This document shows, piece after piece, positions 7,424 through 41,059 of a DNA stretch of 64,000 bases. The stretch's first letter is position 1. Each line of letters begins with the position of its first letter. Below the pieces are notes generated by a model. It was not told the origin of the DNA. It was given only the letters and a program-made list of their open reading frames with translations, and did not search any database. A program made the translations under genes and the position numbers. The DNA lies in NCBI RefSeq assembly GCF_004801295.1, contig NZ_SSOC01000005.1, positions 496,001-560,000 of the forward strand. Reading direction: 5' to 3'. Source of the stretch: Pseudothauera nasutitermitis (lineage in GTDB: Bacteria; Pseudomonadota; Gammaproteobacteria; Burkholderiales; Rhodocyclaceae).

Positions 7424-7630
7424 GGTAGGTCTCCTCGTTCTTGTCGGACCGCGCGCCATGCTGCGCGGGCGGCCACCGGCTTCCATGCGGAGCCGGATGC
7501 GGGCGCGGAGCGATCGGGCGTTCCGTCGCGCGCACCAGTCAGAGCCTAACCACGTAGCGCTGCCCGTGGCAATGGGCATTCGCCCCGATACGCTGGACGG
7601 GCGTCGGGGAAACGTGCGAAACGGGACGGA

Positions 7631-8440
7631 TCAGGAGAAGAAGATGCCGTGCAGCATCTTCAGGCACAGCAGCATCAGCACGCCGGCGAAGATCTTCTTC
7701 AGGATGGCGACCGGCAGGCGGTGCGCCAGGCGCGCGCCGACGGGCGCGGTCCACATGCTCACCAGCGAAACCAGCACCAGTGCGGGCAGATAGACGTAGC
7801 CCAGGCTGAACGGCGGCAGCCCGGAGGCGCCCCAGCCGTTGATCAGGTAGCCGAGGGCGCCGGCCAGCGCGATGGGCAGGCCGATGGCCGCCGAGGTGCC
7901 GATGGCCTCCTGCATCTTCACGTTGCACCAGGTCATGAAGGGCACGGACAGTGAACCGCCGCCGATCGCCACCAGCGCCGAGATGCCGCCGATGCCCACG
8001 CCCACCGCGCCCATGCCCAGCGGACCGGGCAGGCCGCGCGACGGCTTGGGCTTGACGTTGGCGAGCATCTGCAGCGACACGTAGGCCATGAAGCAGGCGA
8101 AGAAGATCGCCAGCCCCTCGGTGCTCGCGCGCGCGGCCAGGAAGGTGGCGCCGAAGGTACCGACGAGGATGCCGGGGGTGATCGCGCGCACGATGTTCCA
8201 ATGCACCGCGCCGTGGGCGTGGTGGGCACGCAGGCTGGAGATGGAGGTGAGCACGATGGCCGCCATCGAGGTGCCCAGTGACAGGTGTACCACGTGCTCG
8301 AGCGGAAAGCCCTGGGCCAGGAACAGCGTGGTCAGCATCGGCACCATGATGCCGCCGCCGCCGATGCCGAGCAGCCCGGCAAAGAACCCCACGAAGGCCC
8401 CGAGGGCCAGGTAGGTCAGCCACCATGCATCGAAACTCAT
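7631..8440 (-). CDS. TauE/SafE family membrane permease
   Basis: A 269-residue membrane protein with about eight spans. The N-terminal repeat carries the family signature FVGFFAGLLGIGGGGIMVPM, and the second half repeats it as GVGIGGISALVAIGGGSLSV. The start is the ATG preceded by GGGGAAAG. The family exports or imports sulfite, sulfonates or other small organic anions; the substrate cannot be read from sequence. It stands alone between the kinase gene and the divergent chemoreceptor gene. Confidence 0.88.
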   Translation of the reverse strand: MSFDAWWLTYLALGAFVGFFAGLLGIGGGGIMVPMLTTLFLAQGFPLEHVVHLSLGTSMAAIVLTSISSLRAHHAHGAVHWNIVRAITPGILVGTFGATFLAARASTEGLAIFFACFMAYVSLQMLANVKPKPSRGLPGPLGMGAVGVGIGGISALVAIGGGSLSVPFMTWCNVKMQEAIGTSAAIGLPIALAGALGYLINGWGASGLPPFSLGYVYLPALVLVSLVSMWTAPVGARLAHRLPVAILKKIFAGVLMLLCLKMLHGIFFS

Positions 8441-8615
8441 CGTCTTTCCCCGCCCAGCGCCGACGGCGCGTGCAAAGGGTGAATTGTGAAGTCCTCCCCG
8501 GCCCGCTGTCACCCTTGCGGCGGTTGATCTGCAACATTTTCGGCGCTGATGCGCCGCCCTAGGATGGTTGCTGAAGCCGGAGCCGCACAATCACGACATA
8601 CTACGTTCGGCCTAT

Positions 8616-8634
8616 CGCGGACACACTGTCCGCG
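8616..8634. repeat. Perfect 8-3-8 palindrome upstream of chemoreceptor gene
   Basis: CGCGGACA, three bases, TGTCCGCG. It lies 25 bp before the chemoreceptor start, just ahead of an A-rich stretch and the AGGGGGAG ribosome site. It could be a repressor operator or a leader hairpin affecting translation. Confidence 0.5.
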
Positions 8635-8659
8635 CAATAAAAAAGGGGGAGACCACGCC

Positions 8660-10579
8660 ATGCTGTTCGCGCCATTCCGCAACACCTCGATCCGCACCCG
8701 CCTGCTCACCGCCGTCGCCTTGCTGGTGGGCGGCCTGCTGTACTTCGCCGTCGGCCAGATGGCCGAGCGCATCGCTGCCGCCCGCGCCCTGTCCACGGTG
8801 GAAACCCTGTCCGCCGTGGCCGTGCGCGCGAGCGCGCTGATCCACGAACTGCAGAAGGAGCGCGGGCTGTCCGCCGGCTTCCTGGCTTCGCGCGGGCAGC
8901 GCTTCGATACCGAACTTGGCGCCCAGCACACGCTCACCGACCGTTACGCTGCCGAACTGCGCGACCGCCTGGCCGGGCTCGCTGCCGGTTTCGGCGACCC
9001 TTCCTTCGCCGTCGCGCTGGGCGAGGCGCGCGCGGAGCTCGATCGTCTTGCCGACATGCGCGCCAAAGTGCGCGCGCTGGAAACCGACGGCGCCGCCAGC
9101 TTCGCCTACTACACTGCCGCCATCGACCGCCATCTCGCACTGATCACCGCCACCCACCGCCTCAGCGACCAGCAGTCCGTCTCGCAGGCCCTGCTCGGCT
9201 ACCTGATGTTCATCCACGCCAAGGAACAGGCCGGCCGCGAGCGCGCCACGCTCAACGCGGCGTTCTCCGCCGACGCCTTCGATGCCGCGTTGTACCGCCG
9301 CTTCATCGCCATCGTCGCCGCGCAGGACACCTACCTGGCGGCCTTCCGCGATTTCGGCGGCGACGACGCACGGGCGCTGTTCCAGCGCCAGCAGGATTCG
9401 GTCGAAGCCCGCGAGGTGGCGCGCATGCGCGCGGTGGCGCTGGAACGCGCCGCCAGCGGCGGTTTCGGCATCGAACCGGCGGCCTGGTTCGCCGCCATCA
9501 CCCGCAAGATCGACGGCATGAAGGAAGTGGAAGACCTGCTCTCCGCCGAACTCGACGCCCGGCTCGCCGCCCTGTCCGCCGAGGTCCGCGCCGGCTTGTG
9601 GGTGGCCGGCGCGCTCACGGCCGCCAGCCTGCTGCTGGCACTGTGGTTCGGCCTCACGGTGCGCGGCATCCTCGCTTCGCTGCGCGGCGCGGTTCAGGCC
9701 GCCGAGCGCATTGCCGGGGGCGACCTGCGCGTGCGCATCGAGGTCGACCGGCAGGACGAGGCCGGCCAGCTGCTGCTGTCGATGAAGCACATCGTCGAGC
9801 GCCTGTCGCGCACCATCGGTGAAATCCGCGCGGCCGCCGACCAGCTCACCGATGCCGCCACACAGGTCAGCGGCACCGCGCAATCCCTGTCGCAGAGCGC
9901 CAGTGAGCAGGCCGCCAGCGTGGAGGAAACCTCCGCCGGCATCGAGCAGATCTCCGCCGCCATCGACCACGCCAGCGAGAACGCGCGCACCACCGGGGAA
10001 ATCGCCGGGCTCACCGCGCACGAGGCCAACGCGGGCGGCGAGGCGGTGCGCGAGACGGTTACCGCCATGCAGCAGATCGCCGCGCGCACCGGCGTGGTCG
10101 ATGACATCGCCTACCAGACCAACCTGCTCGCCCTCAACGCCGCCATCGAGGCCGCGCGCGCCGGCGCCCATGGCAAAAGCTTCGCCGTGGTCGCCGCCGA
10201 GGTGCGCAAACTGGCCGAACGCGCCCAGGTCGCGGCGCACGAGATCGCCGAACTGACCGGGCACAGCGTGAACACTGCGGAAAGCGCCGGCGGGATGCTG
10301 GAGAAGATCGTCCCGGACGTGCGCCGCACCGCCGAACTGGTGCGCGAGATCGCCGCCTCCTCGGCCGAGCAGGCCAGCGGCATCGGCCAGATCAACACCG
10401 CCATGAGCCAGCTCAGCGAGGCCTCGCAGCACAACGCCAGCGCTTCCGAGCAACTGGCCGCCACCGCCACGCAGATGGGCGGACAGGCGCGCCGCCTGCA
10501 CGAACTGCTGGAGTACTTCCACATCGCCGGCGAGGCTCAACCCTCGCCGGCGGCTGCCTCGATGGCACGCGCCAGATAG
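8660..10579 (+). CDS. Methyl-accepting chemotaxis protein with NIT sensor domain
   Basis: A 639-residue chemoreceptor. The start follows AGGGGGAGA. Residues about 13-30 are a membrane span, followed by a large periplasmic NIT domain (hallmark [20 protein letters not shown]) that in other proteins responds to nitrate and nitrite. A second span lies near 315-335 ([20 protein letters not shown]). Then come HAMP and a cytoplasmic signalling domain whose hairpin tip has the conserved [20 protein letters not shown]. It should steer the flagellar or pilus motor in response to the ligand through CheA/CheW. The 3' end overlaps the convergent IclR gene by 43 bp. Confidence 0.92.
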
Positions 10580-11349
10580 GCCAGACGCGGCCCCAGGTCC
10601 TTCTCGATGCGCTCGGCGGTGAGCGCGAAGGCCGGGCCGCTGGCCGACAGCACCAGCAGGTCGTGGTCCGGACAGCGCAAGGGCACCGCCACCGCGTTGG
10701 TTTCGCGCTTCCAGTCGCCCAGCGAGGTGCAGTAGCCCAGCACGCGGTGCTCGGCCATCGCCTTGCGGATGCCGGCCTCGGTGGCCGCCCAGTTGTCCGG
10801 CGCGCGCTGGCGGGCGTGCCCGAGCAGGTAATCGCGCTCCGCCGCCGGCAGCCCGCACAGGAAGGCGCGGCCGATGGAGGTGGACACGATGGGCAACTGC
10901 ACGCCGGGATCCACCTTCAGCGTCACCAGCGCGCGCGGCCGGCAGTTTTCCAGATAGATCATGTCGAGCCGCTCACGGGTGGACAGCGCCACCTGCACCT
11001 GCGCGTACTCGGCCAGATCCTGCATCAGCGGGCGGGCGATCTCGCGCACCCGCGTGTTGCCCAGCGCGGCCTGCCCCAGCGCCAGCACCGCCGGCGTCAC
11101 CCGGTAGCGCCCGGAAGCCTCGTCCTGGCGCAGGTAGCCCAGGCGCAGCAGCGTATGGGTGAGCCGCGACACGGTGGATTTGGCCAACCCGGTGCGCGCG
11201 GCCAGTTCGCTGTTGGACAGCAGCCGGGTCTGTGCCGAGAAGCAGCGCAGCACTTCCAGCCCGCGCGCCAGCGCGGTGACGAACTGGCGGTCGTCCTGCG
11301 CTTCGGCGACCTCTCCGAGCGGAGGCAAATCCCGGCTCATGTTCTGCAT
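10537..11349 (-). CDS. IclR family transcriptional regulator
   Basis: About 270 residues from the ATG chosen here; a second in-frame ATG lies 9 bp inside, and no strong ribosome site distinguishes them. The N-terminus is a winged helix ([28 protein letters not shown], shown here only as a description of the region 45-75), and the C-terminal two-thirds is the IclR effector domain with [17 protein letters not shown] and [20 protein letters not shown]. It is divergent from gcdH and the CoA-transferase gene, and the spacer holds a perfect TTCCGC/GCGGAA palindrome. It is probably the regulator of that glutaryl-CoA pair and of itself. Confidence 0.88.
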
Positions 11350-11350
11350 G

Positions 11351-11359
11351 GCGGAACAA
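11351..11359. promoter_or_regulatory. Half-site resembling the IclR operator
   Basis: GCGGAACAA here, right at the start of the IclR gene, repeats exactly the right arm and flank of the palindrome at 11457-11471. It may be a second, weaker operator giving autoregulation. Confidence 0.35.
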
Positions 11360-11456
11360 AATTGCTGAAATTCCAGCTTTTTTTGTAGTGCATGACCCTG
11401 AACCTTCCGATGGAGGCGAATGTTTGCCAGCATAGCAGCACACATTCGATATGAGA

Positions 11457-11471
11457 TTCCGCACAGCGGAA
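11457..11471. promoter_or_regulatory. Putative IclR operator in the gcdH promoter
   Basis: TTCCGC-ACA-GCGGAA is a perfect 6-3-6 palindrome of the size and type bound by IclR regulators. It sits 26 bp before the gcdH start and inside the divergent spacer to the IclR gene, so binding could block or activate gcdH. Confidence 0.6.
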
Positions 11472-11497
11472 CAATGCCACTCGAGGAGGCCGCACAC

Positions 11498-12679
11498 ATG
11501 GCAAACCATCCTTCCTTCCACTGGGACGATCCGCTGCTGCTCGAACAGCAACTCACCGACGAAGAGCGCATGGTGGCCGACACCGCGCGCGCCTACGCGC
11601 AGGACAGGCTGATGCCGCGCGTCACCGAAGCCTTCCGCCATGAACGCACCGACCCGGTGATCTTCCGCGAGATGGGCGAACTGGGCCTGCTCGGCCCCAC
11701 CATCCCCGAGGAGTACGGCGGCGCCGGGCTCAACTACGTGAGCTACGGGCTGATCGCCCGCGAGGTGGAACGGGTGGATTCCGGCTACCGTTCGATGATG
11801 AGCGTGCAGAGTTCGCTGGTGATGGTGCCGATCTTCGAATTCGGCAACGAAGCCACACGGCGCAAGTACCTGCCAAAGCTCGCCAGCGGTGAATGGATCG
11901 GCTGCTTCGGCCTCACCGAACCGGACCACGGCTCCGACCCCGGCTCGATGGCGAGCCGGGGTCGGAAGGTGGACGGCGGCTGGCGGCTTTCCGGCAGCAA
12001 GATGTGGATCACCAACAGCCCGATCGCCGACGTGTTCGTGGTGTGGGCCAAGGACGAGGAAGGCCGGATCCGCGGCTTCGTGCTGGAAAAGGGCTGGCCG
12101 GGCCTCTCCGCCCCGGCCATCCACGGCAAGGTCGGCCTGCGCGCCTCGATCACCGGCGAGATCGTCCTGGACGAGGTGTTCTGCCCGGACGAGAACGCCT
12201 TCCCGGATGTACGCGGCCTCAAGGGCCCGTTCACCTGCCTCAATTCGGCGCGCTACGGCATCGCCTGGGGCGCCCTGGGCGCGGCCGAATTCTGCTGGCA
12301 CACCGCGCGCCAGTACGTGCTGGACCGCAAGCAGTTCGGCCGCCCGCTGGCCGCCAACCAGCTCATCCAGAAGAAGCTCGCCGACATGCAGACCGAAATC
12401 ACCCTGGCGTTGCAGGGCTGCCTGCGCCTGGGGCGCATGAAGGACGAGGGCACGGCGGCGGTGGAAATCACCAGCCTGATGAAGCGCAACTCCTGCGGCA
12501 AGGCGCTGGAGGTGGCACGCACGGCGCGCGACATGCTGGGCGGCAACGGCATCTCGGACGAATTCGGTGTAGCCCGCCACCTGGTCAATCTGGAAGTGGT
12601 GAACACCTACGAAGGCACGCACGACATCCACGCGCTGATCCTCGGCCGCGCGCAAACCGGCATCCAGGCGTTCTGCTGA
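11498..12679 (+). CDS. gcdH: Glutaryl-CoA dehydrogenase
   Basis: A 393-residue flavoprotein of the usual GcdH length. The start is the ATG 8 bp after GAGGAGG; upstream in-frame codons belong to the regulatory spacer. Typical GcdH segments are present: [48 protein letters not shown], and the catalytic base Glu372 in [17 protein letters not shown]. It oxidises and decarboxylates glutaryl-CoA to crotonyl-CoA in lysine, tryptophan and aromatic degradation. It is co-transcribed with the CoA-transferase 2 bp downstream, which probably makes glutaryl-CoA. Confidence 0.95.
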
Positions 12680-26009: not shown

Positions 26010-26091
26010 TCCCGCCCGGAATGCGTCAAGAATGGACAAGCCGGAAGCCTGCATCTTCAGCAATTCCTCCGAAAAACCAGTATTTACGCGC

Positions 26092-26107
26092 TGGCACGGC
26101 CTATGCA
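26092..26107 (+). promoter_or_regulatory. Sigma-54 promoter of pilA
   Basis: TGGCACG, four bases, ATGCA: the -24 element is a perfect match and the -12 element has one mismatch to TTGCW, with correct spacing. It lies 57 bp before the pilA start codon. pilA genes are commonly sigma-54/PilR dependent. Confidence 0.8.
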
Positions 26108-26164
26108 TTGGTGCTGTCCGAGCGGTACGGCTCAGCACACCGCACAACCAACCAGGAGAATTCC

Positions 26165-26608
26165 ATGAAGAAGATGCAGCAAGGTTTCACCCTGATCGAA
26201 CTGATGATCGTCGTGGCGATCATCGGCATTCTGGCTGCCGTGGCGCTGCCGGCGTATCAGGATTACACCGCGCGGGCCCAGATGGCCGAAGCAATGACGC
26301 TGGCCGGTGGCGCTCGTACTGCGGTCACTGAATTCAGAACATCGGAAGGTGATTGGCCTGCCGGCAACACTGAAGCTGGACTTTCGCCGGCCACTGATAT
26401 TACCGGCAATTACGTTGCTTCCGTGTCGGTCCAGGCTGATGGAACCATCATCGCTGCGATGAAGGGCACTGGTGTTTCCACAGGAATTCGGGGAAAAACG
26501 CTGGTTCTTAGCCCAATCAGCCAAGCCGGGGCTATTACCTGGGTGTGCAAGCCCGGTGGCGACGATCCGGTCGATAACAAATTCGTGCCGACCTCCTGCC
26601 GCTCGTAA
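26165..26608 (+). CDS. pilA: Type IVa major pilin
   Basis: A 147-residue prepilin. The short leader MKKMQQG ends with the Gly of the PilD site and is followed by [20 protein letters not shown], with Glu at position 5 of the mature protein. The C-terminal pair of cysteines (TWVCKPGG and PTSC) can form the disulfide-bounded D-region. CCAGGAGAATTCC precedes the start. It builds the type IV pilus for twitching, adhesion and DNA uptake. It has its own sigma-54 promoter and terminator and is followed by two glycosylation genes. Confidence 0.95.
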
Positions 26609-26628
26609 TTTTTCCTGTCTGGTATGTA

Positions 26629-26657
26629 ACTGCCCGCTAAAGCGGGCAGTTTTTTTT
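26629..26657 (+). terminator. Rho-independent terminator after pilA
   Basis: CTGCCCGCT / AGCGGGCAG form a 9-bp stem with a 2-base centre, followed by eight T. It begins 21 bp after the pilA stop. The T-run ends just where the ribosome site of the next gene begins, so that gene depends on read-through or its own promoter. Confidence 0.92.
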
Positions 26658-26668
26658 GGAGCCTCGCC

Positions 26669-28630
26669 CTGTCACGCTTAAAACAGCCTGCGCTGGCACT
26701 TCTCGCATTACTCATCTTGTGCTCAATCGTCTATTCCCCGGGGCTACAAGGTGGATTTCTATTCGACGACACGCCTAATTTATCCCCACTTGGTGCATAT
26801 GGTGGAGTAAATAACCGGGACTCCCTCCAAAGCTTTGTTCTAGGTGGAAATGCAGGCCCAACCGGGCGCCCCGTTGCTTTGGCTAGTTTTTTACTGAATG
26901 ACAATACTTGGCCCAGCCAAGCTAATTATTTCAAGCCTACCAACCTAGCCTTTCATCTCTTGACCGGCCTTGCGCTATGCTGGGCCACCCTGCTGCTGAT
27001 GCGTCTGTGGGGCAAAAGCGAACGGACCGCCCAGTGGCTCGCTGTGCTCAACATGGGGCTATGGCTGTTGCACCCTTACATGGTGTCCACCACCCTGTAC
27101 GTAGTGCAGCGCATGGCCCAGTTGGCCACCCTGTTCATGTTTGCGGGGCTTGCCGGCTACCTGCACGGCCGCCTGCTCCTGCCAACCCGCCCACGCGCAG
27201 CGTACGCATGGATGTCCTGCTCCGTGGCCTTGGGCACTTTACTGGCCGTATTGAGCAAGGAAAACGGTGCGCTCCTCCCGTTGCTGATCTGCATCGTCGA
27301 ATTCTGCCAGCCTGTTTCCTACCCGTACGAGAACAAACCCGACTGGCGTTGGCGAGCCGTTTTCTTATGGCTACCCGCACTGGCCATCCTTTTCTACCTC
27401 GCCCAACGCATCAACTTCTCGCCCGATCTGTGGCCGACCCGACCGTTCAATCAGGTCGAACGGCTCATGACCCAGCCGCGCATCCTCTGGGAATACCTCT
27501 ATCATCTATGGGTACCGCGCATTGAGGGACGCGGCCTTTTTCAGGATGGTTTCCTGATTTCGCGCGGCTGGCTGAGCCCTCCCGGCACTCTGGTTGCCAC
27601 TATCGGGCTGGCGACTCTTGCCGCCCTGGCCATTGCATTGCGCCGTACCTGGCCCGCATTCAGCCTGGCCATCCTGTTCTTCCTCAGTGCCCACCTGATC
27701 GAATCCAGCGTCATCGGACTGGAACTGTACTTCGAGCACCGCAATTACGCTGCCGCGGCGTTCCTCTTTTTACCGATCGCCTGCGCCCTGGCCTGGACCG
27801 CCCAGCACATCCGCCCCACAGCTGCAATTGCGGCGTGCTGTGCGCTACTGATGCTGCTATCTTTTTTCACATGGCAAAGAGCCACGCTTTGGGGCGACAC
27901 CAATAAATTGCAAACCTATTGGGCATTGGCCACCCCCGACTCACCACGCGCCCAGAATTACCTGGCAGTACAGTTGTTCAAGCAAGGGCGCACGGCCGAA
28001 GGCATGCATCATCTGGAACAGGCCGCCGAACGCCTGCCACACAGTTCTCTCCTAACCATGCAGTGGCTTTTACAGCGCGTATCGCTTGGCATAGCCATAG
28101 AAGCGGACTTCGAGCTTGCCAAGCAACGCTTGGCCGACCAGCAATTCGATGCACAGGCAGTGCTGGGCTTACGCATGATCACCGAGGAGCTCATCACGTC
28201 AAAGCAAAGCACGGCTTACCGCAAATGGACTCTTGGCCTGCTGGAAAGCATGGACGAATACCCCCACTACCGCAGGGTCGCTCTGTTCCGCAGACTTTCC
28301 CCTTACTTACGGGGTTTGCTGCTGCTTGCCGAACACGAGGCAACACAGGCTACCGAATTACTGAGCATCGCCATGCGCCGCTATGCCGACACCGACGCAG
28401 CCATGAGCATGGTTGCCCATGTGGCGAATTCCGGGTATCCCGCCGAAGCGATGGTGTTGCTGGCACAGGCACACGAAATTTATCTGGCTCAACCCGACAG
28501 GAAACTGAAACGCTCACGCCAAATCTACGACATGGAATTCGAGCGTGTAGAAAACATACTGAAGGAAGATCTGAAGGCCTCCAAGCAGCACACGCCATCC
28601 GTGCCCGGCATTTCACGGACTATTGACTAA
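26669..28630 (+). CDS. GT-C/TPR membrane glycosyltransferase, probable pilin glycosylation enzyme
   Basis: About 653 residues. The best start is a CTG codon 7 bp after TTGGAG, giving a natural N-terminus (positive residues then the span QPALALLALLILCSIVYS); the first conventional start in this frame, a TTG at 26717, would cut into that span. After span 1 comes GGFLFDDTPNL, which resembles the Asp-containing first loop of GT-C glycosyltransferases, and GPTGRPVALASFLLN and KPTNLAFHLLTG, as in TMTC/O-linked glycosylation proteins. About 10-11 spans are followed by a C-terminal helical repeat region (about 420-640) of TPR type. It probably transfers a lipid-linked sugar to pilin. Homology is by pattern only. 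Confidence 0.7.
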   Translation: MSRLKQPALALLALLILCSIVYSPGLQGGFLFDDTPNLSPLGAYGGVNNRDSLQSFVLGGNAGPTGRPVALASFLLNDNTWPSQANYFKPTNLAFHLLTGLALCWATLLLMRLWGKSERTAQWLAVLNMGLWLLHPYMVSTTLYVVQRMAQLATLFMFAGLAGYLHGRLLLPTRPRAAYAWMSCSVALGTLLAVLSKENGALLPLLICIVEFCQPVSYPYENKPDWRWRAVFLWLPALAILFYLAQRINFSPDLWPTRPFNQVERLMTQPRILWEYLYHLWVPRIEGRGLFQDGFLISRGWLSPPGTLVATIGLATLAALAIALRRTWPAFSLAILFFLSAHLIESSVIGLELYFEHRNYAAAAFLFLPIACALAWTAQHIRPTAAIAACCALLMLLSFFTWQRATLWGDTNKLQTYWALATPDSPRAQNYLAVQLFKQGRTAEGMHHLEQAAERLPHSSLLTMQWLLQRVSLGIAIEADFELAKQRLADQQFDAQAVLGLRMITEELITSKQSTAYRKWTLGLLESMDEYPHYRRVALFRRLSPYLRGLLLLAEHEATQATELLSIAMRRYADTDAAMSMVAHVANSGYPAEAMVLLAQAHEIYLAQPDRKLKRSRQIYDMEFERVENILKEDLKASKQHTPSVPGISRTID

Positions 28631-31650: not shown

Positions 31651-31716
31651 GCGTGCTGTGGTCAGCCACAAAGGGGGATTTCAAAGGAAAATCGAAAATC
31701 GCACCAAATCTCGACG

Positions 31717-31726
31717 CCCCCCCCCC
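31717..31726 (+). repeat. Homopolymeric C10 tract
   Basis: Ten consecutive C lie 60 bp upstream of the chosen start of the glycerophosphotransferase-like gene and inside a longer, in-frame GTG reading frame (from 31658). Tracts of this length slip during replication and are classic phase-variation switches in surface-glycan genes. Confidence 0.85.
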
Positions 31727-31786
31727 AATCACTACTTCAAAGATCAAAATTCGTCGAAATCTGGATTTTTGGAACATCCACAAAAA

Positions 31787-32989
31787 ATGAAAATCAACAA
31801 GCGCAATCCAAAACACTGGCTATTACTGTTCGCATTCATGGGGCAAGGTATTCTTGGTTTGGTATTGCGCTGGGCTACCGGACATAAGCACCGGGATCAG
31901 AAGCGCCAAGCGGTTGTGAATGTCATCCTGTACGGCCACAAACTCAATGGTAATCTGCTGGCGCTACATGATTATTCGCGGAGCAATCCCAGTATTGGGT
32001 TGCGTCCGGTATTTCTGAGCATGGATGGCGCGTATTGCCAGGAGCTGGCCGCACTTGGAGTGGATTGTGTATGGGCCGGCGGCATGGGTTGTTCGCGCAT
32101 CTTGGCCGGCGCTACAGCCTTGGTCAGCGATCACGGCCTGCATTCGCTGCAACCATTGCTTGGAGCCTACCAACGGTTGGGGCTCCGGTTCTTCGATGTC
32201 TGGCACGGCTTCGGCTTCAAGGGCTTCGACGCAGACGATTACCGCACCTTGCATCACTATGACGAGGTCTGGGTCGCATCGGAAACGCAGCGAGAACAAT
32301 ACGTTCGCATGGCGGAATTTGAGCCTGCCATCGTGCACCCGACCGGGTACGGGCGCACAGATGCCTTGGTTAATCGCAGCCACAATCCCGAAGGCATTAT
32401 TCAGCACCTCGGACTGAACCCGTCGACCTGCGGCAAGCTAGTCATGTTTGCGCCGACTTGGGCGCAGGACGACCGCGGACGAAGCATTTATCCGTTCGGC
32501 TGCTCCGAACAAAAATTTCTCGGGGCGCTATCGGATTTTGCGTCCGGACACGGAGTGACCGTCCTTTTTCGCAGTCACATGAACAGCGGCGATGTGTCGG
32601 GCGGTGATTATCCCGGTATCGTTGCCCTGCCGGGTACGCGGTTCCCGAATACGGAGGCGCTTCTGTTCATCAGCGATGCACTGGTGTGTGACTGGTCGTC
32701 GATTGCATTCGATTACTTGGTCCTCGACCGGCCCACCTTCTTCCTCGATGTGCCGGCGCCGTTTGCGAAAGGGCATTCGCTCGGACCCGAGTGCAGGTTC
32801 GGCCCCATCGTGCATGGCATGGAAGAATTGCTGGAGGGTTTGCGAAACGCGTTGACCGACCCGCAGAGATACTGGTCGATCCATGGGGCTGCACACCTAT
32901 CGACGAAGCAATATGTCTGGGGGCCTTACGCAGACGGCAACGCGACCAGTCGTTACGTTGAGCGGCTTCAGTTGCTCTGCGGCCATTGA
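31787..32989 (+). CDS. CDP-glycerol glycerophosphotransferase family protein (TagB/TagF-like)
   Basis: About 400 residues. The start here gives MKINKRNPKHWLLLFAFMGQ, with a hydrophobic N-terminal segment; a GTG 129 bp upstream is in frame across the C10 tract. Family motifs are FDVWHGFGFKGFDAD, VMFAPTWAQDDRGRSIYPF, and the C-terminal VCDWSSIAFDYLVLDRPTFF. Relatives polymerise or transfer glycerol- or ribitol-phosphate from CDP donors. Together with the second copy at 33012 and the Bcs1-like enzyme it suggests a polyol-phosphate glycan. Confidence 0.82.
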   Translation: MKINKRNPKHWLLLFAFMGQGILGLVLRWATGHKHRDQKRQAVVNVILYGHKLNGNLLALHDYSRSNPSIGLRPVFLSMDGAYCQELAALGVDCVWAGGMGCSRILAGATALVSDHGLHSLQPLLGAYQRLGLRFFDVWHGFGFKGFDADDYRTLHHYDEVWVASETQREQYVRMAEFEPAIVHPTGYGRTDALVNRSHNPEGIIQHLGLNPSTCGKLVMFAPTWAQDDRGRSIYPFGCSEQKFLGALSDFASGHGVTVLFRSHMNSGDVSGGDYPGIVALPGTRFPNTEALLFISDALVCDWSSIAFDYLVLDRPTFFLDVPAPFAKGHSLGPECRFGPIVHGMEELLEGLRNALTDPQRYWSIHGAAHLSTKQYVWGPYADGNATSRYVERLQLLCGH

Positions 32990-33011
32990 GGCTCGCGAAG
33001 CTCGATTGCTG

Positions 33012-34301
33012 TCATCGGGTGCCGTTGCCCAATGTCGGATGCAGGGCTGGAATCCAACCTTGGTCGCGCATGAAACCGAGCAGGAGAATGCTGGAGTCAG
33101 CTTGGGGGTGGCCATCGAACGCAAGTTGACACAAATTAAGACGGCGCTGTTGCCAGTGAGCAGACTCTCCTTGGAGGATACCCCCAAGAAGGCCGTCCCA
33201 ATTTTCGAATTTCGGACCCGGTGTCATCGACTCAAAGTCGAACTGGATTTCTCGGTCGCCAGACACGTATTGACGGAAGTCGGGCACAAGGAAATAAACC
33301 GGCCGATCCAGCAGCAGGTAGTCCATGTAGATCGACGAATAATCGGTGATCAGGCAGGACATGTACGGCAGCAAGGGATAGGCATCACTGTGCGGGTTAA
33401 GGACATGCAGGTGGCGCCCGGCAACAGCGGCTCCCCCTCGTTCATAGGGATGGAATTTGAAGACGAACTCGAATCCATGTAATTCACAGAATTCGTCCAG
33501 CTTGGTGATTTGTCCGGGATCAAGCCCGAGCGGAACTCCAGGGGTATGGCGATAGGTTGGCGCGACAAAAACAAGCTTCCTGTCTCCGCTCCGACAGACT
33601 TCCAGCTTGTCACGTGCGGTGATGTCCGCGTTGATCCAATCCAGCGGGTGTTCGTTGCGAAACCCGTTGCGCGGATAGCCGGTGATAGGCAAGTGCCTGC
33701 TGCGGAAGGCCTTTGCGAACACGTTGTCGCGATAGAAGACCGATGTGCAGACCACTGCGTCGAACCGGATGGCCCGGCCATACAGGTAACGCCGGGCCAT
33801 GCGCGGCCATAACACCCACCTGCTCGACAGGATTTTTTTCCCAGGCGCTTCGTTGCGCCATTTGTCGAATTCGATTCGCTTGAAGCCGACGCCGTGCCAG
33901 AACTGCACAAGACGCGCTCGGATGAGAAAAAAACGCCGCCACTTCTGGTACCACTCGATGGAGTCCACCACTACACTGCCGCAACGCATCAGGAACCAGA
34001 TAGCGCGAAGCGAGGGATACACCATAGCTTCGAAGCCCTGATCGAGGACTGCCCTTGCCACCTCGGGCAGCCCAGTAACGTGGACGATGCGCAAACCATT
34101 AGTCTTGTCCGTTGCCACGTCGATGAAGAAGTATTTGGTGTTGTCGACGAACTCGCCGGATTCGCGACCGATGACGGCGATCCAGTCAAGGCGCCTGGGA
34201 ACCAGCGCCGCGACCGGCGCGATCAATATCCAGCCTGCGAGACCGGAGAAGATTTCGGCTATGTTCGTTTTTGTATCGTGCCAAAGGCTAGATGCGGACA
34301 T
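33012..34301 (-). CDS. CDP-glycerol glycerophosphotransferase family protein (TagB/TagF-like), second copy
   Basis: A 429-residue protein on the opposite strand to the first copy, converging with a 22-bp gap. It has a hydrophobic N-terminal stretch ([17 protein letters not shown]), the family sequence [32 protein letters not shown], and [20 protein letters not shown] near the C-terminus. It likely transfers glycerol- or ribitol-phosphate. It is the last gene of the minus-strand operon and overlaps the Bcs1-like gene by 14 bp. The first copy is only similar, so this is not a recent duplication. Confidence 0.85.
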
Positions 34302-35646
34302 CGATTACTTCGCCTGTTGCCGGGGAAAAGCAGGCGCTCAGGGTCGCTTTGGCAACCGTTTCGGGACTCAGCAGCTTCTCGGCTGGCTCGATGCCAAAAT
34401 TCTCTGTTCGCATCGGCGTCGCCGTACGCTCCGGGTTGATTGCATTAATCCGTACGTGAAACGGAAGAAACTCCTCGCTCAATGCCTGCACAAGGTTGAC
34501 GACCGCCGCTTTCGTCGCCGAGTAGATGCTGTAGCGTGCGCGTCCACGAGTATACGAGCTCGAAGTAAACAGGGCAATGCTGCCGCCGGATTCTCGCATT
34601 ACCTCAAATGCTTCGCGGGCAACGACGATGCTCCCACGAAGGTTGATTGCGACCTGCTCATCAATGCACGCGTAGTCCTGCCCCGCGATCAAGCCCGTCC
34701 GCAAGATGCTGGCGGTCACAATCACGGCATCAATCCGACCGAAGGATTGCATGGTTTTACGCAACGTTGCCCGCACCGCATTCTCGTCGCAGATATCGAC
34801 GCCGCTGGAGCGGGAAACCGCAACGACATTGGCTCCGGCTTCCGTGCCAAGCTGAAGGATACTCTTGCCGATGCCGCGGCTGGCGCCGAAAACAACGATG
34901 ATCTTCCCTGGCAAGTCGGGTGTCTCTTTGTTGTTCCCATGTCGGGTACGAAGCTGGAAAATACGATCTGCCAAGTAAATGTCGGAAGGATAGGTAATTT
35001 TGATGTTGTTGATGTCGCCCGCGACTACTCCAACATCGCCGAGTCCAAATTGCAGAATCAGGCCGCAGTCGTCGGTAACCTTTAGATTATTTTCTTGGAC
35101 CGCGAGTTGGTGTGCCTTGCGTAACAGGCCAGAACGAAAGGCTTGTGGTGTCTGTCCTAGCCGCAGACACGACCGATCGGGGATTTCATCGATCATGGAG
35201 TCGTCCTGTACGCGAATGATAGTGTCACTGGACGGAATCGCCGTATCCACAGCATCAACACGATCCAGTGCATCAAGGCAGCGGTCGATGGTCGCATGGT
35301 CGAGCAGCGGCCTGACCGCGTCGTGGACCAGCACCTTGTGGCCATCACCCACGACCGAAGCGATCCCGGCGGCAGAGCTTTGCTGGCGTGTCGCACCGCC
35401 TGATACCACCTTCGTGACTTTTCGATAGCCGGCGCGATTGATGATCTCGTTTATGAGAAGCAGGTTGCCTTCATGCCCCACAATGACGATTTCGTCGATT
35501 GCTGTATGTCGCTCGAAGATGTCGAGTGTATGTTCCAGCACTGTCTTCCCGGCAAGCTTGAGGAATTGCTTGGGGGTTGGTGCGCCGAAGCGAACGCCAG
35601 ATCCGGATGCTAGGACGATGGCAATGTTCATGGCCTGCGCCTTCAT
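34288..35646 (-). CDS. Bifunctional cytidylyltransferase and SDR reductase (Bcs1-like, CDP-ribitol synthesis)
   Basis: A 452-residue fusion. Residues about 1-230 are an IspD-type cytidylyltransferase ([41 protein letters not shown]). Residues about 240-450 are a short-chain reductase with NADPH loop [12 protein letters not shown] and catalytic [12 protein letters not shown]. This is the architecture of Haemophilus Bcs1, which reduces ribulose 5-phosphate and makes CDP-ribitol. The start is the ATG that overlaps the LicD stop as ATGA. It should provide CDP-ribitol or a similar donor to the TagB/TagF-like genes. The exact substrate is inferred. Confidence 0.85.
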
Positions 35647-36596
35647 GTTCTTTTTGCGTCGTCCGATATGGTTTGAATCGAGGCCGAACCAAGCCTCGTG
35701 TCGAGTATGACAGAGGAGAAATGTTTTGCCGATCTCTTGGATGGCGGGTGCGGTGTCATATATTCGTCTCCGTAAAAGACTCGCAAGACGCCATCTGGAT
35801 TTTTGGGTGCAAAAAACTCGGAGCCCTCGAAGACAATCCTTTCGACTGGATAGATATGATCCCTCTTGAAAACTCTCGTCCATCGGACATCAAACCCATA
35901 TCCGGGGTTTCCATTTCCGGACTCCCTGAATTTGCTTTTAATTAGGAATTTTCTAGAGAATGCACGAAATACCTTTATTGGTGTTTCCGCGGTAATGACA
36001 GGAGCAAGCAGTTGAAGAATTCTGTTGATGGCAATCGCAACTGGGCGAAATGCTCCACGGGAGGGAGGCATATATATCTTCAATAGATTTCGGTAAATAG
36101 ATTTGCACATCAAATCCATCATAAGCATGGGGTTGCTTCGATGAAAATCATCGCAAGGCAAAACGTCGATGAATAAGCCTCGTTGCTCGTGCACAGGGCT
36201 TTGCGTATCAACAATCCGACTGTATTTGTCCCTGATTCGGCACGGAACACTGTAGTCACTTTCGATTATTCCCGTGGCAGGATCGATCTCTAGGTCAGAT
36301 GGCAATTCCTTTCTTGCAACCTCCATGAAACGATCAAAATCCCGGCGCGGCATCACGATATCCACGTCGTCGTCCCAAGGGATGAAGCCACCGTGGCGGA
36401 CGGCGCCAAGGAGTGTGCCGCCATCGAGCCAATAAACTAGACCGTGCTTGGTGCAAATATAGTCGACAATCTTGAGCATGCGCAGTTCGATGAATTGAAT
36501 TCCACGCAGAGTAGAATTTTGAATATTCCTTTCGTCTGGAAAAATCATGCCGAGAGATGGATTTTTCATGTCGGCATTAATCAACGCTTTCCCCAT
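35643..36596 (-). CDS. LicD family phosphotransferase
   Basis: A 317-residue protein with the LicD signature: YWLDGGTLLGAVRHGGFIPW, DDDVDIVMPRRDFDRF, then RDKYSRIVDT and FIDVLPCDDF. LicD proteins attach phosphocholine or another phospho-alcohol from a CDP donor to a surface sugar. The LicC-like nucleotidyltransferase at 37913 could make that donor. The start overlaps the fusion-protein stop by 16 bp; an internal Met (MKNPSLGMIFP) is an alternative. Confidence 0.88.
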   Translation of the reverse strand: MGKALINADMKNPSLGMIFPDERNIQNSTLRGIQFIELRMLKIVDYICTKHGLVYWLDGGTLLGAVRHGGFIPWDDDVDIVMPRRDFDRFMEVARKELPSDLEIDPATGIIESDYSVPCRIRDKYSRIVDTQSPVHEQRGLFIDVLPCDDFHRSNPMLMMDLMCKSIYRNLLKIYMPPSRGAFRPVAIAINRILQLLAPVITAETPIKVFRAFSRKFLIKSKFRESGNGNPGYGFDVRWTRVFKRDHIYPVERIVFEGSEFFAPKNPDGVLRVFYGDEYMTPHPPSKRSAKHFSSVILDTRLGSASIQTISDDAKRT

Positions 36597-37906
36597 ACTA
36601 TCGATTTAATCTTTCGGCGAATCGGCTGCTCGATAATGAAACTGTTTTGCTCCATCAATTTGAGGCCGGCAGATTCGAAGGTTGAAATATATAGAGCCTC
36701 GTTTCTAATAACACCACCAAAGGACATATAAATTTTTCTTTCGGATTCTGCTAGGCAATCCCTGGTTATTACGATCCCTCCTGACTTTGTCAGATCAGAG
36801 ATTTTCCGAACAACTCGATCAAAAGCTTGATCGCTGGAGACATGGAGGAGCACGCCCAAGCACAGCACTGCGTCGTATTTCTTGCCGTCGTCGAAAGTGG
36901 CGATGTCGCCGCATTCGAATGTGAATGAAATATCGGAAAGATTCGCATAAAGATGTCTTGCAGCATCAAGCGATGACTGCGAAATGTCTTGAAGTGTGAC
37001 ATGGCATTTGCACGGAGCAAATTTTTTAGCCAATGCAATAGAGTGCCCAGTCGAGCTTCCGCCGATGTCGAGGATATTGACAGTATCGGACGCGGGTTGA
37101 CATAAGCTCTCAAGAAGACGGAGGTAGTAATCTGTCTTGGTGTCAGTATGAAGGGAGTCGGAATGGTCTACGTATTTGTAGCGAAAATGCGCGCGCGCAT
37201 CCGAGACTTCATCGAGGAAATCGGCTTCGTATTTCTGGTGATTTCTGGCCAGAACGGCATCGCCTGCAATTTCAAGGATGTCGATGATGTCCTCCTCGTG
37301 AACGCCGAATTCATGAAGGTATTGCTTGCAAAGGTGAAGGTCGGTGCAGGCGAGAAAAAATTTCTTGATTCCAAGTGCTTGGTAATCATCAAAAACTCTT
37401 TTCAAGAGTCGCTTTGGATGAGCGGCATAATTTTCGCCGAGTCCGGCATAGCCTCTTTTGACCGATGTGATAAGGTCGCCCATCTTTTCCGAATGACTGG
37501 AAAGTGTAACAAACCGATTGGTATCCTTCGGGAGGCATTCAAGCGTTCCGATGAACGCGATCCTGTCTTCATTGCCTTCGATGCGCTTGGCGACACTGTC
37601 CCAGAGATTGATGCATTTAAGCTTGGTGTTGAGCTTAGGAATGAGCTGGTGCGCTGTCAGGCACAGCAGCATGTAATGTCCATGGTTCGACTCGGCCTCC
37701 TTCAACTTCCGGTTGAAGATCGAGACCACCTCCGCGACCTTTCCCTGCCGGATGCTTTTTGAGACGGATGGTGTCTGTGTTAGGAAATCCAGCGTGTATT
37801 CGGGGAGGTCATTGTCCCAAAGAACTCCTCGCTGCTGGCACTTTTTCAGCATGTACGTCGCCAAGTCGACGCCGGCCACGGTTCCCTTTCCTGAAATGAT
37901 GTACAT
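36581..37906 (-). CDS. Asp/Glu-racemase-like domain fused to a SAM methyltransferase
   Basis: A 441-residue two-domain protein. Residues about 1-225 look like the aspartate/glutamate racemase fold: SGKGTVAGVDLATYMLKKC at the start, first catalytic-type motif LLCLTAHQL (Cys82, compare CNTAH), and second FFLACTDLHL (Cys187, compare CTEL). Residues about 230-440 are a class I methyltransferase with motif I ILDIGGSSTGHSIALA, TLQDISQSSL and FDAVLCLGVLLHVSSDQ (the D reads KYDAV in this protein). No function is known for such a fusion; it may make or modify a D-amino-acid or similar substituent for the glycan. Base composition is clearly AT-rich. Confidence 0.6.
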   Translation of the reverse strand: MYIISGKGTVAGVDLATYMLKKCQQRGVLWDNDLPEYTLDFLTQTPSVSKSIRQGKVAEVVSIFNRKLKEAESNHGHYMLLCLTAHQLIPKLNTKLKCINLWDSVAKRIEGNEDRIAFIGTLECLPKDTNRFVTLSSHSEKMGDLITSVKRGYAGLGENYAAHPKRLLKRVFDDYQALGIKKFFLACTDLHLCKQYLHEFGVHEEDIIDILEIAGDAVLARNHQKYEADFLDEVSDARAHFRYKYVDHSDSLHTDTKTDYYLRLLESLCQPASDTVNILDIGGSSTGHSIALAKKFAPCKCHVTLQDISQSSLDAARHLYANLSDISFTFECGDIATFDDGKKYDAVLCLGVLLHVSSDQAFDRVVRKISDLTKSGGIVITRDCLAESERKIYMSFGGVIRNEALYISTFESAGLKLMEQNSFIIEQPIRRKIKSIVWGKR

Positions 37907-37912
37907 GGACGT

Positions 37913-38545
37913 TCACCATGTCCGAACGAAATCTATTGCCCTCTTGTAGTCGTCGTATGTGTCGATGTCCATCGCGCGCACCTTCAGGCCTTTCATAGGA
38001 AGATATTCCTCGATTTGATTAAAGACGGTGCCGGATGTATAACGAACCTTGTCCCTCCGAAGGCAGGCAGGCCCGGTCCATTCATAATCGCCGTTTTCTC
38101 GCGAAAACATCACCACGTCGCCGTGCCTGTTCGTGCGAACGAAGACTGCTTCATCCGACGAGCGTTCGGCATAGGCAACATATTCAGATGGATGTTGGAG
38201 GCACATCTTGACGTCTTCGGGGTGTACCAACAAATCACCATCCCATTCGATGACGTACTCATTTGCGTCCCGGCTACCCAAATAGAAGCTTGCACCGGTC
38301 TGCGTGTTGAAATAGTTGTGGTTGTAGATGAATACGACGTCCCGCCGCTTTTCAAGAACCGCGCTGATGATCGAATTTGCCTCATACCCGACCACGATCC
38401 GCAAATCCTCGACATTCTGAAATAAATCCAGCTGCCAATGGATCAGCGGTTTTCCATTAATATCTATCAGCGCTTTGGTCTGCCCAAGCCCAAGTCTGGA
38501 GCCGATGCCGGCACAACTCAGAACAACTGATTTAGTTGACGGCAT
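37913..38545 (-). CDS. LicC-like nucleotidyltransferase
   Basis: A 210-residue NTP-transferase. The start is the ATG after GAGGAGG. It has SVVLSCAGIGSRLGLGQTKA (nucleotide loop), INGKPLIHWQL, NYFNTQTGASFYLGS and VIEWDGDLLVHPED, close to the phosphocholine cytidylyltransferase LicC and aminoethylphosphonate cytidylyltransferase group. It would make a CDP-activated alcohol for LicD. The gene overlaps the HAD gene by 28 bp. Confidence 0.82.
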   Translation of the reverse strand: MPSTKSVVLSCAGIGSRLGLGQTKALIDINGKPLIHWQLDLFQNVEDLRIVVGYEANSIISAVLEKRRDVVFIYNHNYFNTQTGASFYLGSRDANEYVIEWDGDLLVHPEDVKMCLQHPSEYVAYAERSSDEAVFVRTNRHGDVVMFSRENGDYEWTGPACLRRDKVRYTSGTVFNQIEEYLPMKGLKVRAMDIDTYDDYKRAIDFVRTW

Positions 38546-39117
38546 AGTGCCTCCTCGTCGAAAACGGCATAGTCTGCGATAGTAAGAACACTTCTGGCCG
38601 GGTAGTGCGTCAGCCCGCATGCGATGGAAACGTGGGCTTCGCGCATGGCTTCAACATCATTGTTTCCGTCGCCAATGAAGACGACTTTTTCGTTTCTATC
38701 CTTGTAATGTCTGACCACGTTTTCTTTCTTCAGGATGACCTTTATACGGTCTATCCTGTTATCGATAACTGTAGCTTCCGATCCAAAAAACCGGCAGTCC
38801 AGCTTTCTCGACAAACTGGTTGTCCAGCAGGTCAGATTACCGGTGGCGATGGCGCAATGCTCTGCATTGATTTTGATGAATTCCCGGATTTTCGGGTGCA
38901 TGGCGACATCTCCCAGCAATTCGTCCACCTTATCGACTGGGAGTTTGCCGAGTATATGAACCCGCTTGATGAAGCTTTCGACGAACGGGATGTTTCCCTG
39001 GATCGTTTCCCTCGTCAGAGCTTCTATCTGCTCCGCGACCTGAAAATGTTCAGCAATCAACGGTAAAGTTTCCTGGGAAGTCACCGTTCCATCGAGATCA
39101 AAAATGAAAGTGGTCAT
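38518..39117 (-). CDS. HAD-superfamily phosphatase (phosphoserine-phosphatase-like)
   Basis: A 199-residue HAD protein. Motif I is FIFDLDGTVTSQE, motif II is CAIATGNLTCW, and motif IV is VVFIGDGNNDVEAMREA. This resembles the SerB/HAD-IB group. In this operon it may remove a phosphate from a glycan precursor or a phospho-amino acid. Its 28-bp overlap with the LicC-like gene suggests linked functions. Confidence 0.85.
   Translation of the reverse strand: MTTFIFDLDGTVTSQETLPLIAEHFQVAEQIEALTRETIQGNIPFVESFIKRVHILGKLPVDKVDELLGDVAMHPKIREFIKINAEHCAIATGNLTCWTTSLSRKLDCRFFGSEATVIDNRIDRIKVILKKENVVRHYKDRNEKVVFIGDGNNDVEAMREAHVSIACGLTHYPARSVLTIADYAVFDEEALCRQLNQLF

Positions 39118-39307: not shown

Positions 39308-41058
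<1,751 letters not shown>

Positions 41059-41059
<1 letters not shown>

Follow-up and report, generated by a model that had tools for sequence, protein, structure and literature searches.

A racemase-like domain fused to a methyltransferase, encoded with a putative phospho-amino-acid glycan cassette in a type IV pilin-flanked island of Pseudothauera nasutitermitis

What role could an amino acid racemase play in a glycan gene cluster? The question is raised by a 64,000-nucleotide stretch of the Pseudothauera nasutitermitis genome (contig NZ_SSOC01000005.1; hereafter, the window). Here an ORF at positions 36581-37906 encodes a protein of 441 aa with an ATG start, in which a racemase-like domain (residues ~1-220) is followed by a class I SAM methyltransferase (residues ~260-440). 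The original prediction had placed the ORF at these positions, and we add that it lies on the minus strand. Its reading frame is unbroken over 441 codons, and the operon around it is tightly packed. The gene had also been said to overlap its licD, NTP-transferase and Bcs1-like neighbours. This is true only of licD, with which it shares 16 bases. A gap of 6 bases separates the end of the NTP-transferase gene from the fusion start, and the Bcs1-like gene comes after licD and has no contact with the fusion gene.

The racemase-like half (residues 1-225, positions 37232-37906, minus strand) carries Cys82 in LLCLTAH and Cys187 in FFLACTDL, exactly where they had been reported, and both align with the catalytic cysteine columns of racemases. 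CNTAH is the first catalytic motif of two-cysteine racemases and is also present in the racemases aligned here. In the fusion protein it reads CLTAH, as noted earlier; TAH and the ACTDL surroundings of the second cysteine are kept. The half thus has the two cysteines of the two-cysteine type of the Asp/Glu racemase superfamily (PF01177) and resembles this superfamily over the whole domain, at scores below the Pfam and NCBIfam curated cut-offs. Searched alone, it had the NCBIfam CuyB cysteate racemase as the best library match (E 1.4e-5, covering residues 3-211), although the 25.2 bits fell far short of the curated threshold of 190, and Pfam Asp_Glu_race gave E 0.0028 (17.9 bits against a cut-off of 31). 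By BLASTP, the racemase of L129 shared 41 of 203 positions with it (E 6e-5 in this single comparison).

An HMM of six racemases gave 27.3 bits for the N-terminal half and -1.5 for the C-terminal half; among 2000 shuffled versions of the N-terminal half, the highest score was 7.5 bits (1526 of the 2000 were reported at all). With an earlier HMM of four racemases the half scored 11.7 bits and its top-scoring shuffle 5.1. The hhalign comparison with four racemases returned a probability of 28% and E 6e-4. Given the profile, BLASTP, HMM-versus-shuffle and hhalign scores, the likeness to Asp/Glu racemases appears to be above chance but weak. Among proteins of solved structure, a phmmer search with the full-length sequence picked up methyltransferases, and racemases were absent from the hits up to E 1. 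The AlphaFold2 models had a mean pLDDT of 40.3 for the whole protein (six alignment rows) and 45.2 for the N-terminal half (three rows), values too poor for reading a fold.

The other half (positions 36581-37231, minus strand) matched Pfam Methyltransf_25 at residues 278-377 (7.5e-15, above the cut-off). Both parts of the proposed architecture were therefore recovered, the racemase part as the weak CuyB match. An HMM of cassette methyltransferases gave the window half 27.9 bits; as unrelated class I methyltransferases scored as high as 38.8, this HMM did not place the half in the PA1088 group.

Two genes precede the fusion. The SerB-like HAD (38518-39117, minus strand), which is PA1089/CD0241-like and would transfer a phospho group to a hydroxy-amino acid, scored 207.1 bits with an HMM of four other cassette HADs, the best outsider reaching 84.6; its tblastn match to the P. 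aeruginosa gene had E 4e-35 and 37.9% identity. The NTP transferase (37913-38545, minus strand), PA1090/CD0242-like and proposed to be a phospho-amino-acid cytidylyltransferase, scored 178.4 bits with an HMM of four other cassette NTP transferases (best outsider, 69.6), and tblastn against the P. aeruginosa gene gave 1e-21 with 31.8% identity. In the comparison made along with the HMMs, identity to the P. aeruginosa proteins was 38% for the HAD and 33% for the NTP transferase. Both HMMs were built without the window genes. By these scores, the two proteins separate cleanly from the outsiders as clear members of the PA1089 and PA1090 subfamilies. CD0241 and CD0242 are the C. difficile counterparts according to the published papers, and the HMM comparison rests on other cassette sequences. 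An annotated phosphocholine cytidylyltransferase (L058), encoded beside a CDP-glycerol phosphotransferase, scored 63.0 bits with the cassette NTP HMM and was left outside the cassette group. Searches for further relatives gave little. Pattern and alignment-based scans of viral contigs for the NTP transferase led nowhere, as did an alignment search there for the HAD; among 200 genomes of the order, 20 matched the NTP transferase, with a best foreign score of 27 bits. Six phage records matched the HAD at 23-25% identity (SerB where annotated) and offered no lead.

In the P. aeruginosa record, the HAD and NTP-transferase homologues lie between flgL and fliC, together with a methyltransferase and a CDP-glycerol-phosphotransferase-type glycosyltransferase. 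This stretch (L057) was identified as the PA1088-PA1091 b-type cassette by gene order and the papers. As described in the cassette-related part of PMC11833859, only the core deoxyhexose remains in PAO1 pa1088-pa1090 mutants, the missing group being phospho-N,N-dimethylthreonine. For C. difficile, the corresponding part of PMC10714395 gives phospho-N-methyl-L-threonine by NMR and CDP-threonine as the authors' proposal. The role of the HAD in both model organisms is likewise proposed by the authors (PMC11833859, PMC10714395). Since the HAD and NTP-transferase genes of the window group with the P. aeruginosa flagellin-glycan cassette, a role in glycan decoration is well supported. The methylated, amino-acid-derived decoration of the original prediction stands on these neighbours, and its racemase component is backed at the level of sequence families only. 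The link to the flagellin-glycan pathway, like the type IV pilin gene at the island's edge, is an addition to that prediction.

Downstream of the fusion lies the gene for a LicD-family phosphotransferase (35643-36596, minus strand; Pfam LicD 3e-40; GC 46.9%). The Bcs1-like gene (34288-35646, minus strand) encodes an IspD-type cytidylyltransferase fused to a short-chain dehydrogenase (TIGR00453, 202.6 bits, above the cut-off; adh_short). Its start was picked by eye, the longest ORF extending to 35883. The ribitol-5-P cytidylyltransferase model gave 153 bits, below its cut-off of 166, and by inference the protein may synthesise CDP-ribitol. The operon ends with a CDP-glycerol glycerophosphotransferase family protein (33012-34301, minus strand; PF04464 9.6e-34), and a second one is encoded opposite to the operon (31658-32989, plus strand; PF04464 5.8e-28), so that two PF04464 genes and one LicD gene nearby are candidates for the phosphotransferase of the cassette. 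The best model for the ABC exporter (39308-41059, minus strand) was the PglK glycan flippase NF050066 (6.7e-92; 308.7 bits, far below the cut-off of 1000), with MsbA second at 260 bits.

A type IV pilin, a possible acceptor, is encoded at 26021-26608 on the plus strand (longest ORF; likely start near 26165; Pfam Pilin 9.4e-27, N_methyl 1.7e-10). Directly after it, a membrane-protein-like ORF of 637 aa (26717-28630, plus strand) matched nothing in Pfam or NCBIfam within the limits applied; by position only, it is a possible pilin glycosyltransferase. No flagellar gene was found among the proteins scanned in the pilin region. The GC content is 46.9-50.5% in the HAD, NTP-transferase, fusion and licD genes, 54.3-57.7% in the remaining island and 65.5% in the window. 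These four lowest-GC genes form a module within an island that starts beside the type IV pilin gene. A promoter and terminator scan of the operon gave counts like those of shuffles. LicD provided no lead, because its closest relative on a plasmid (Legionella adelaidensis, 34%) occurs in isolation, with housekeeping genes around it.

Do racemases accompany such cassettes elsewhere? Two HMMs served for counting racemases, since the domain of the window itself escaped one of them at E 0.01 but was picked up by the other at 1.1e-6. Of five HAD-NTP cassettes examined, L057, L096 and L097 lacked a racemase within the stretches covered. One cassette, from a distant genome of the gammaproteobacterial class (L089, genome G020), contains a HAD, an NTP transferase, a methyltransferase, a PF04464 protein and a separate racemase within ~4.5 kb, the racemase matching CuyB at 5.1e-42 with canonical CNTAH and CTEL motifs. 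By eye, no flagellar gene was seen among the ORFs listed for L089 and L097. Direct comparison of the window's racemase-like half gave z 1.1 with the L089 racemase (70 of 500 shuffles scored as high) and z 1.0 with L123, neither being significant. The absence of a significant direct likeness indicates that the recruitments in the window and in L089 may be separate. An alignment-based racemase scan of viral contigs yielded L128-L130, and the last scan gave two of them again. On the virus-like contig L130, two racemase ORFs lie between a cytidylyltransferase-like ORF and a PA1088-like methyltransferase that is 26-30% identical to those of three cassettes. In the related L133 the same two neighbours touch, with no racemase between them. 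A DNA pattern for CNTAH picked out 18 viral stretches, six with an ORF reading PCNTAH, none of them racemase-like.

The fusion itself appears to be rare. Of 369 genomes of the class, 28 matched the whole protein, and the racemase half was matched in its own genome only. Likewise, the half was found in one of 150 family genomes and one of 300 order genomes, its own each time; across the phylum, 46 of 398 genomes matched with an E limit of 1, and the strongest hit outside its own genome (7.4e-4, residues 95-149) contained an internal stop. No plasmid matched the fusion at 1e-5 (four records appeared at E 2-9), and no viral contig did. A scan of genome contigs with exact 8-residue patterns of the one protein, which reach close relatives only, returned a single methyltransferase fragment. 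None of the genome, plasmid and viral searches gave a second copy of the fusion, the racemase of the L089 cassette being stand-alone. The open-licence literature searched yielded no report of a racemase associated with a cassette of this kind.

Starting from the observed domain families, the operon, the HAD and NTP subfamily membership and the racemase gene recurring beside such genes, we infer the following reactions, with their order, substrate, stereochemistry and acceptor. The SerB-like HAD would phosphorylate a hydroxy-amino acid (threonine, serine or homoserine), and the NTP transferase would convert the product to a CDP-amino acid. The fused methyltransferase is proposed to N-methylate the amino acid, and the fused racemase-like domain to invert its alpha carbon, in the free or phosphorylated form, giving an epimerised (D or D-allo) methylated product. 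The phospho-N-methyl-amino acid could then be moved to a glycan sugar by LicD or by either of the CDP-glycerol-phosphotransferase-like proteins. The acceptor glycan is likely protein-linked, possibly on the type IV pilin. That the fusion protein acts on a hydroxy-amino acid by epimerisation and N-methylation, and that the product is afterwards CDP-activated and transferred to a protein-linked glycan, we regard as an evenly balanced proposition. It is favoured by the cassette HAD and NTP scores, the recurrence of racemases in L089 and L130, the shared low GC and the retention of both cysteines. Moreover, E. coli YgeA of the same superfamily acts on homoserine, according to the YgeA-related statements in PMC8142540 and PMC12838360, so racemases of this superfamily can take a hydroxy-amino acid. 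It is weakened by the three of five cassettes that have no racemase, the L-amino acid of C. difficile, the CLTAH motif, the lack of significant likeness between the window half and L089 or L123, a methyltransferase inseparable from unrelated class I enzymes, and a HAD role that is a proposal even in the model organisms.

Several of these observations bear on other readings as well. The racemase-like half could be an inactive binding or scaffold domain, in which case the protein would only N-methylate and the product would be a phospho-N-methyl-L-amino acid as in C. difficile. Its degenerate motif and weak family scores are consistent with this, and known cassettes manage without a racemase; against it, the half keeps both cysteines with their TAH and ACTDL surroundings, and there is a canonical racemase in the L089 cassette and racemase ORFs in L130. 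We consider an inactive domain rather unlikely. The superfamily's name and its best-known members would instead suggest D-aspartate, D-glutamate or some other amino acid lacking a hydroxyl group, joined through an amide, with the methyltransferase acting on something else, and the substrate of the window cassette is itself deduced. However, the two preceding genes belong to a pathway for a phosphodiester-linked hydroxy-amino acid, and no amide-forming ligase turned up among those operon genes that were scanned with Pfam and NCBIfam, which makes an amide-linked product improbable.

The presence of a LicD gene and a general resemblance of the NTP transferase to phosphocholine cytidylyltransferases bring to mind a decoration of the phosphocholine or phosphoethanolamine type, with the NTP transferase as the cytidylyltransferase, LicD as the transferase and the methyltransferase acting on the amino group of aminoethanol. 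This is very unlikely, given the gap between 178.4 bits for the window NTP transferase and 63.0 for L058, the absence of choline kinase from the families matched by the eight proteins scanned and the fact that the racemase would have no role. Finally, the two halves might have been joined by an accident of gene order and have no joint function. Such an event would fit the failure to find a second fusion copy in genome, plasmid or viral searches, but an intact frame of 441 codons in a tightly packed operon and the recurrence of a racemase beside such genes in L089 and L130 make it most improbable.

The racemase-like domain is the element added to the known HAD-NTP-methyltransferase cassette. 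Its presence points to a mirror-image form of the phosphate-linked methylated amino-acid decoration, made by some bacteria and perhaps by a phage. More specifically, and only tentatively, the product may be a CDP-activated N-methyl-D (or D-allo) hydroxy-amino acid that becomes phosphodiester-linked to a pilin or other protein glycan, the racemase having joined the Type A cassette at least two times in bacteria, with a third racemase-methyltransferase-cytidylyltransferase set on a phage-like genome. Both organisms studied depend on their Type A or b-type glycans for flagellar function, and the key CDP-amino acid intermediate is a proposal. Should a racemase belong to some cassettes, the stereochemistry of the amino acid would be variable and a chemical handle, and a surface glycan carrying a D- or D-allo-amino acid would have a clear mass spectrometry or NMR signature. 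The fused enzyme would then also allow a one-tube test of the substrate and of the order of epimerisation, methylation and activation. In addition, the apparent pilin-glycan island and the glycan genes on a virus-like contig extend the reach of the pathway beyond flagellin.

Among known systems, the CuyB, RacX-like and YgeA-like Asp/Glu racemases share with the window protein the overall similarity of the N-terminal half and both catalytic-type cysteine positions; the window protein differs by its fusion to a methyltransferase, by CLTAH in place of CNTAH and by scores far below the family cut-offs. The Lic-1 phosphocholine pathway likewise has a LicD-family protein and a cytidylyltransferase-type NTP transferase. 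In contrast to its set of LicA choline kinase with LicC and LicD, the eight window proteins scanned included no kinase family, and the NTP transferase groups with the cassette. The L089 cassette resembles the window in bringing together a HAD, an NTP transferase, a methyltransferase, a PF04464 protein and a racemase. There, however, the racemase is a gene of its own with canonical motifs, the genes run in both directions, and no LicD or pilin is among the ORFs listed. The Type A cassette of C. difficile (CD0240-CD0244) has the same set of functions, compared here through its descriptions in PMC10714395 and PMC4441256, which give N-methyl-L-threonine and, in the parts concerning this cassette, mention no racemase. 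In P. aeruginosa, PA1088-PA1091 lies between flagellar genes, has no LicD and no racemase in the stretch covered, and encodes a separate methyltransferase of another sequence group. It shares with the window the HAD and NTP subfamilies, a methyltransferase, the presence of a PF04464 protein and, as proposed for the window, the chemistry of a phosphodiester-linked N-methylated amino acid.

The fusion gene (36581–37906, minus strand, 441 aa) belongs to an operon that, in the direction of transcription, encodes a HAD protein (39117–38518), an NTP transferase (38545–37913), the fusion, LicD (36596–35643), a Bcs1-like IspD-SDR protein (about 35646–34288, ORF to 35883) and a CDP-glycerol phosphotransferase family protein (34301–33012). 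All six genes are on the minus strand, each overlapping the next or separated from it by a few bases; a gene for an ABC exporter resembling PglK and MsbA was found 190 bases ahead of the HAD gene. The first four genes have a GC content of 46.9–50.5%, against 54.3–57.7% in the remaining island genes and 65.5% in the whole window. HAD, NTP transferase, fusion and LicD are read as a four-gene module within an acquired glycan island; if this module is real, LicD is its likeliest transferase.

The racemase–methyltransferase fusion of the original prediction proved to be real. Models of class I SAM methyltransferases cover residues 278–377 (7.5e-15). Searched separately, the N half matched the CuyB cysteate racemase model (residues 3–211, 1.4e-5) and Asp_Glu_race (0.0028), both weakly and under the curated cut-offs. 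Both predicted catalytic-type cysteines are retained, and the first motif indeed reads CLTAH in place of CNTAH. The AlphaFold2 models of the whole fusion and of the N half had low mean pLDDT (40.3 and 45.2, respectively). BLASTP of the racemase from locus L129, which we take to be RacX-like, against the fusion gave an E value of 6e-5 and aligned both cysteines with those of L129. Local alignment scores of the N half with six racemases were compared with 500 shuffles each: those of L129 and L118 exceeded all 500 shuffles, 3 and 5 shuffles scored as high for L117 and L128, and the scores for L089 and L123 were not significant (70 and 92 shuffles as high). An HMM of the six racemases gave 27.3 bits for the N half, 7.5 for the best of 2000 shuffles and −1.5 for the methyltransferase half. 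At the sequence level, these results identify the N half as a divergent member of the Asp/Glu racemase superfamily.

In a tblastn search of 72,556 plasmid records, the window HAD matched a P. aeruginosa record (37.9%, 4e-35), the other matches being 7e-10 or weaker among the best 20 of 24 records. The NTP transferase matched the same record (31.8%, 1e-21), with 1e-3 or weaker for the other 12. Among the matches listed, the two were adjacent in this record only, between flgL and fliC, beside genes for a methyltransferase and a CDP-glycerol-phosphotransferase/glycosyltransferase. Based on gene order and published work, the locus is the b-type flagellin glycan cassette PA1088–PA1091. The record (NZ_CP131792.1, 847 kb) is labelled as a plasmid of P. 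aeruginosa, where a flagellar cluster with its glycan cassette would not normally be expected. The group added to the glycan by PA1088–PA1091 is described as phospho-N,N-dimethylthreonine on deoxyhexose (PMC11833859), and that of C. difficile as phospho-N-methyl-L-threonine on GlcNAc, with CDP-threonine as the proposed intermediate (PMC10714395). CD0241 and CD0242 orthologues are reported together away from flagella in a few other genomes (PMC4441256).

HAD profile A2 gave 40 matches at 1e-15 over 274 class genomes, of which the own genome and G020 (2.8e-54) stood far clear of the rest (next 1.1e-21). The three-row profile A3 gave three matches at 1e-20 over 299 phylum genomes (own, G975 and G927). 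Together with the P. aeruginosa record, all five carry HAD–NTP cassettes. Against HMMs built from the four other cassettes, with the window genes left out, the window HAD scored 207.1 bits, with 84.6 for the best outsider. The window NTP transferase scored 178.4 bits, with 69.6 for the best outsider. A methyltransferase gene is close by in every cassette, and the four non-window ones form one group. The fused methyltransferase scored 27.9 bits against this group, a level that unrelated methyltransferases also reach (up to 38.8); its orthology to the group is therefore unsupported. The closest relative of the window NTP transferase (44%) is in L097, a polysaccharide locus from a genome of another class, where HAD, NTP transferase and methyltransferase genes occupy 9645–11655; the two next ORFs had no Pfam match. 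In the flagellar glycan locus L096, the HAD–NTP–methyltransferase genes adjoin a further gene (7291–9069) that combines a methyltransferase domain with a weakly matching PF04464 domain (24.1 bits).

A racemase gene is also present in the G020 cassette (L089). It has genes for HAD (9391–10023) and NTP transferase (9981–10643) and, on the opposite strand, those for a 251-aa racemase (10644–11399; CuyB 5.1e-42, Asp_Glu_race 1.3e-20, motifs CNTAH and CTEL), a methyltransferase (8675–9313) and a PF04464 protein (6967–8616). No racemase was found within 20–31 kb in the P. aeruginosa locus, L096 or L097. Thus, two of five cassettes have one, an independent count of one in four because the window was chosen for its racemase. 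Compared directly, the racemases of the window and of L089 show no significant similarity and may therefore have been recruited on separate occasions. Elsewhere in the own genome (contig C1), L117 encodes a CuyB-type cysteate racemase above the model cut-off, next to an ORF resembling by eye PLP-dependent D-cysteine desulfhydrase; this locus probably serves cysteate degradation, unrelated to the cassette.

Scanning viral contigs with racemase alignments gave three loci. On the 129,404-base virus-like contig IMGVR_UViG_3300005264_000830 (L130, 4582–6235), the racemase is split over two overlapping ORFs (PF01177, 4.5e-13 and 2.8e-4), flanked by a cytidylyltransferase-like ORF (PF01467, 5.1e-6) on one side and a PA1088-like methyltransferase on the other. 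The latter has 26–30% identity to three cassette methyltransferases and a YxAxYRTV stretch in common with them. Glycosyltransferase, DegT aminotransferase and HAD-like ORFs are nearby, the HAD not being of the cassette group. The cassette methyltransferase group gave five loci, including this contig; L132, L133 and L134 have the methyltransferase without a racemase. In L133 (7607–8624) and likewise L134, whose listed ORFs are identical, a PA1088-like methyltransferase directly overlaps the cytidylyltransferase-like ORF. Across these virus-like contigs, the racemase therefore looks like an optional gene inserted between the two.

We consider the likeliest role of the fusion, at roughly even odds, to be the epimerisation and N-methylation of a hydroxy-amino acid that is to be CDP-activated. 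With the halves fused, methylation would pull one epimer out of the racemase equilibrium. YgeA, a racemase of this superfamily, acts on homoserine (PMC8142540, PMC12838360), and ThrH, a proposed relative of the HAD, transfers phosphate to homoserine (PMC10714395). The acidic side chain of phospho-Ser or phospho-Thr, like that of cysteate and aspartate, would suit a CuyB-like enzyme. However, the characterised cassettes lack a racemase, the C. difficile product is an L-amino acid, the first motif of the fusion is degenerate (CLTAH), its methyltransferase is not placed in the PA1088 group, and the number of cassettes is small (five). No enzyme assay of any pathway member appears in the consulted sections of the cited papers.

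At the island edge is a gene for a type IV pilin (Pfam Pilin, 9.4e-27), followed by a 637-aa membrane-like ORF with no family match in Pfam and NCBIfam scans (26021–28630 together, at the rim of the low-GC island, 26–39 kb). The pilin gene with the low-GC island suggests a pilin glycosylation island, and from its position pilin may be the acceptor. In addition, facing operons encode the IspD-SDR protein (34288–35883) and two CDP-glycerol-phosphotransferase family proteins (31658–34301), which suggests that this glycan also contains units of ribitol phosphate or glycerol phosphate. Overall, the finding is real: it points to a modified form of a known pathway, with a stereochemical step that was not expected, and not to a system of a new kind.
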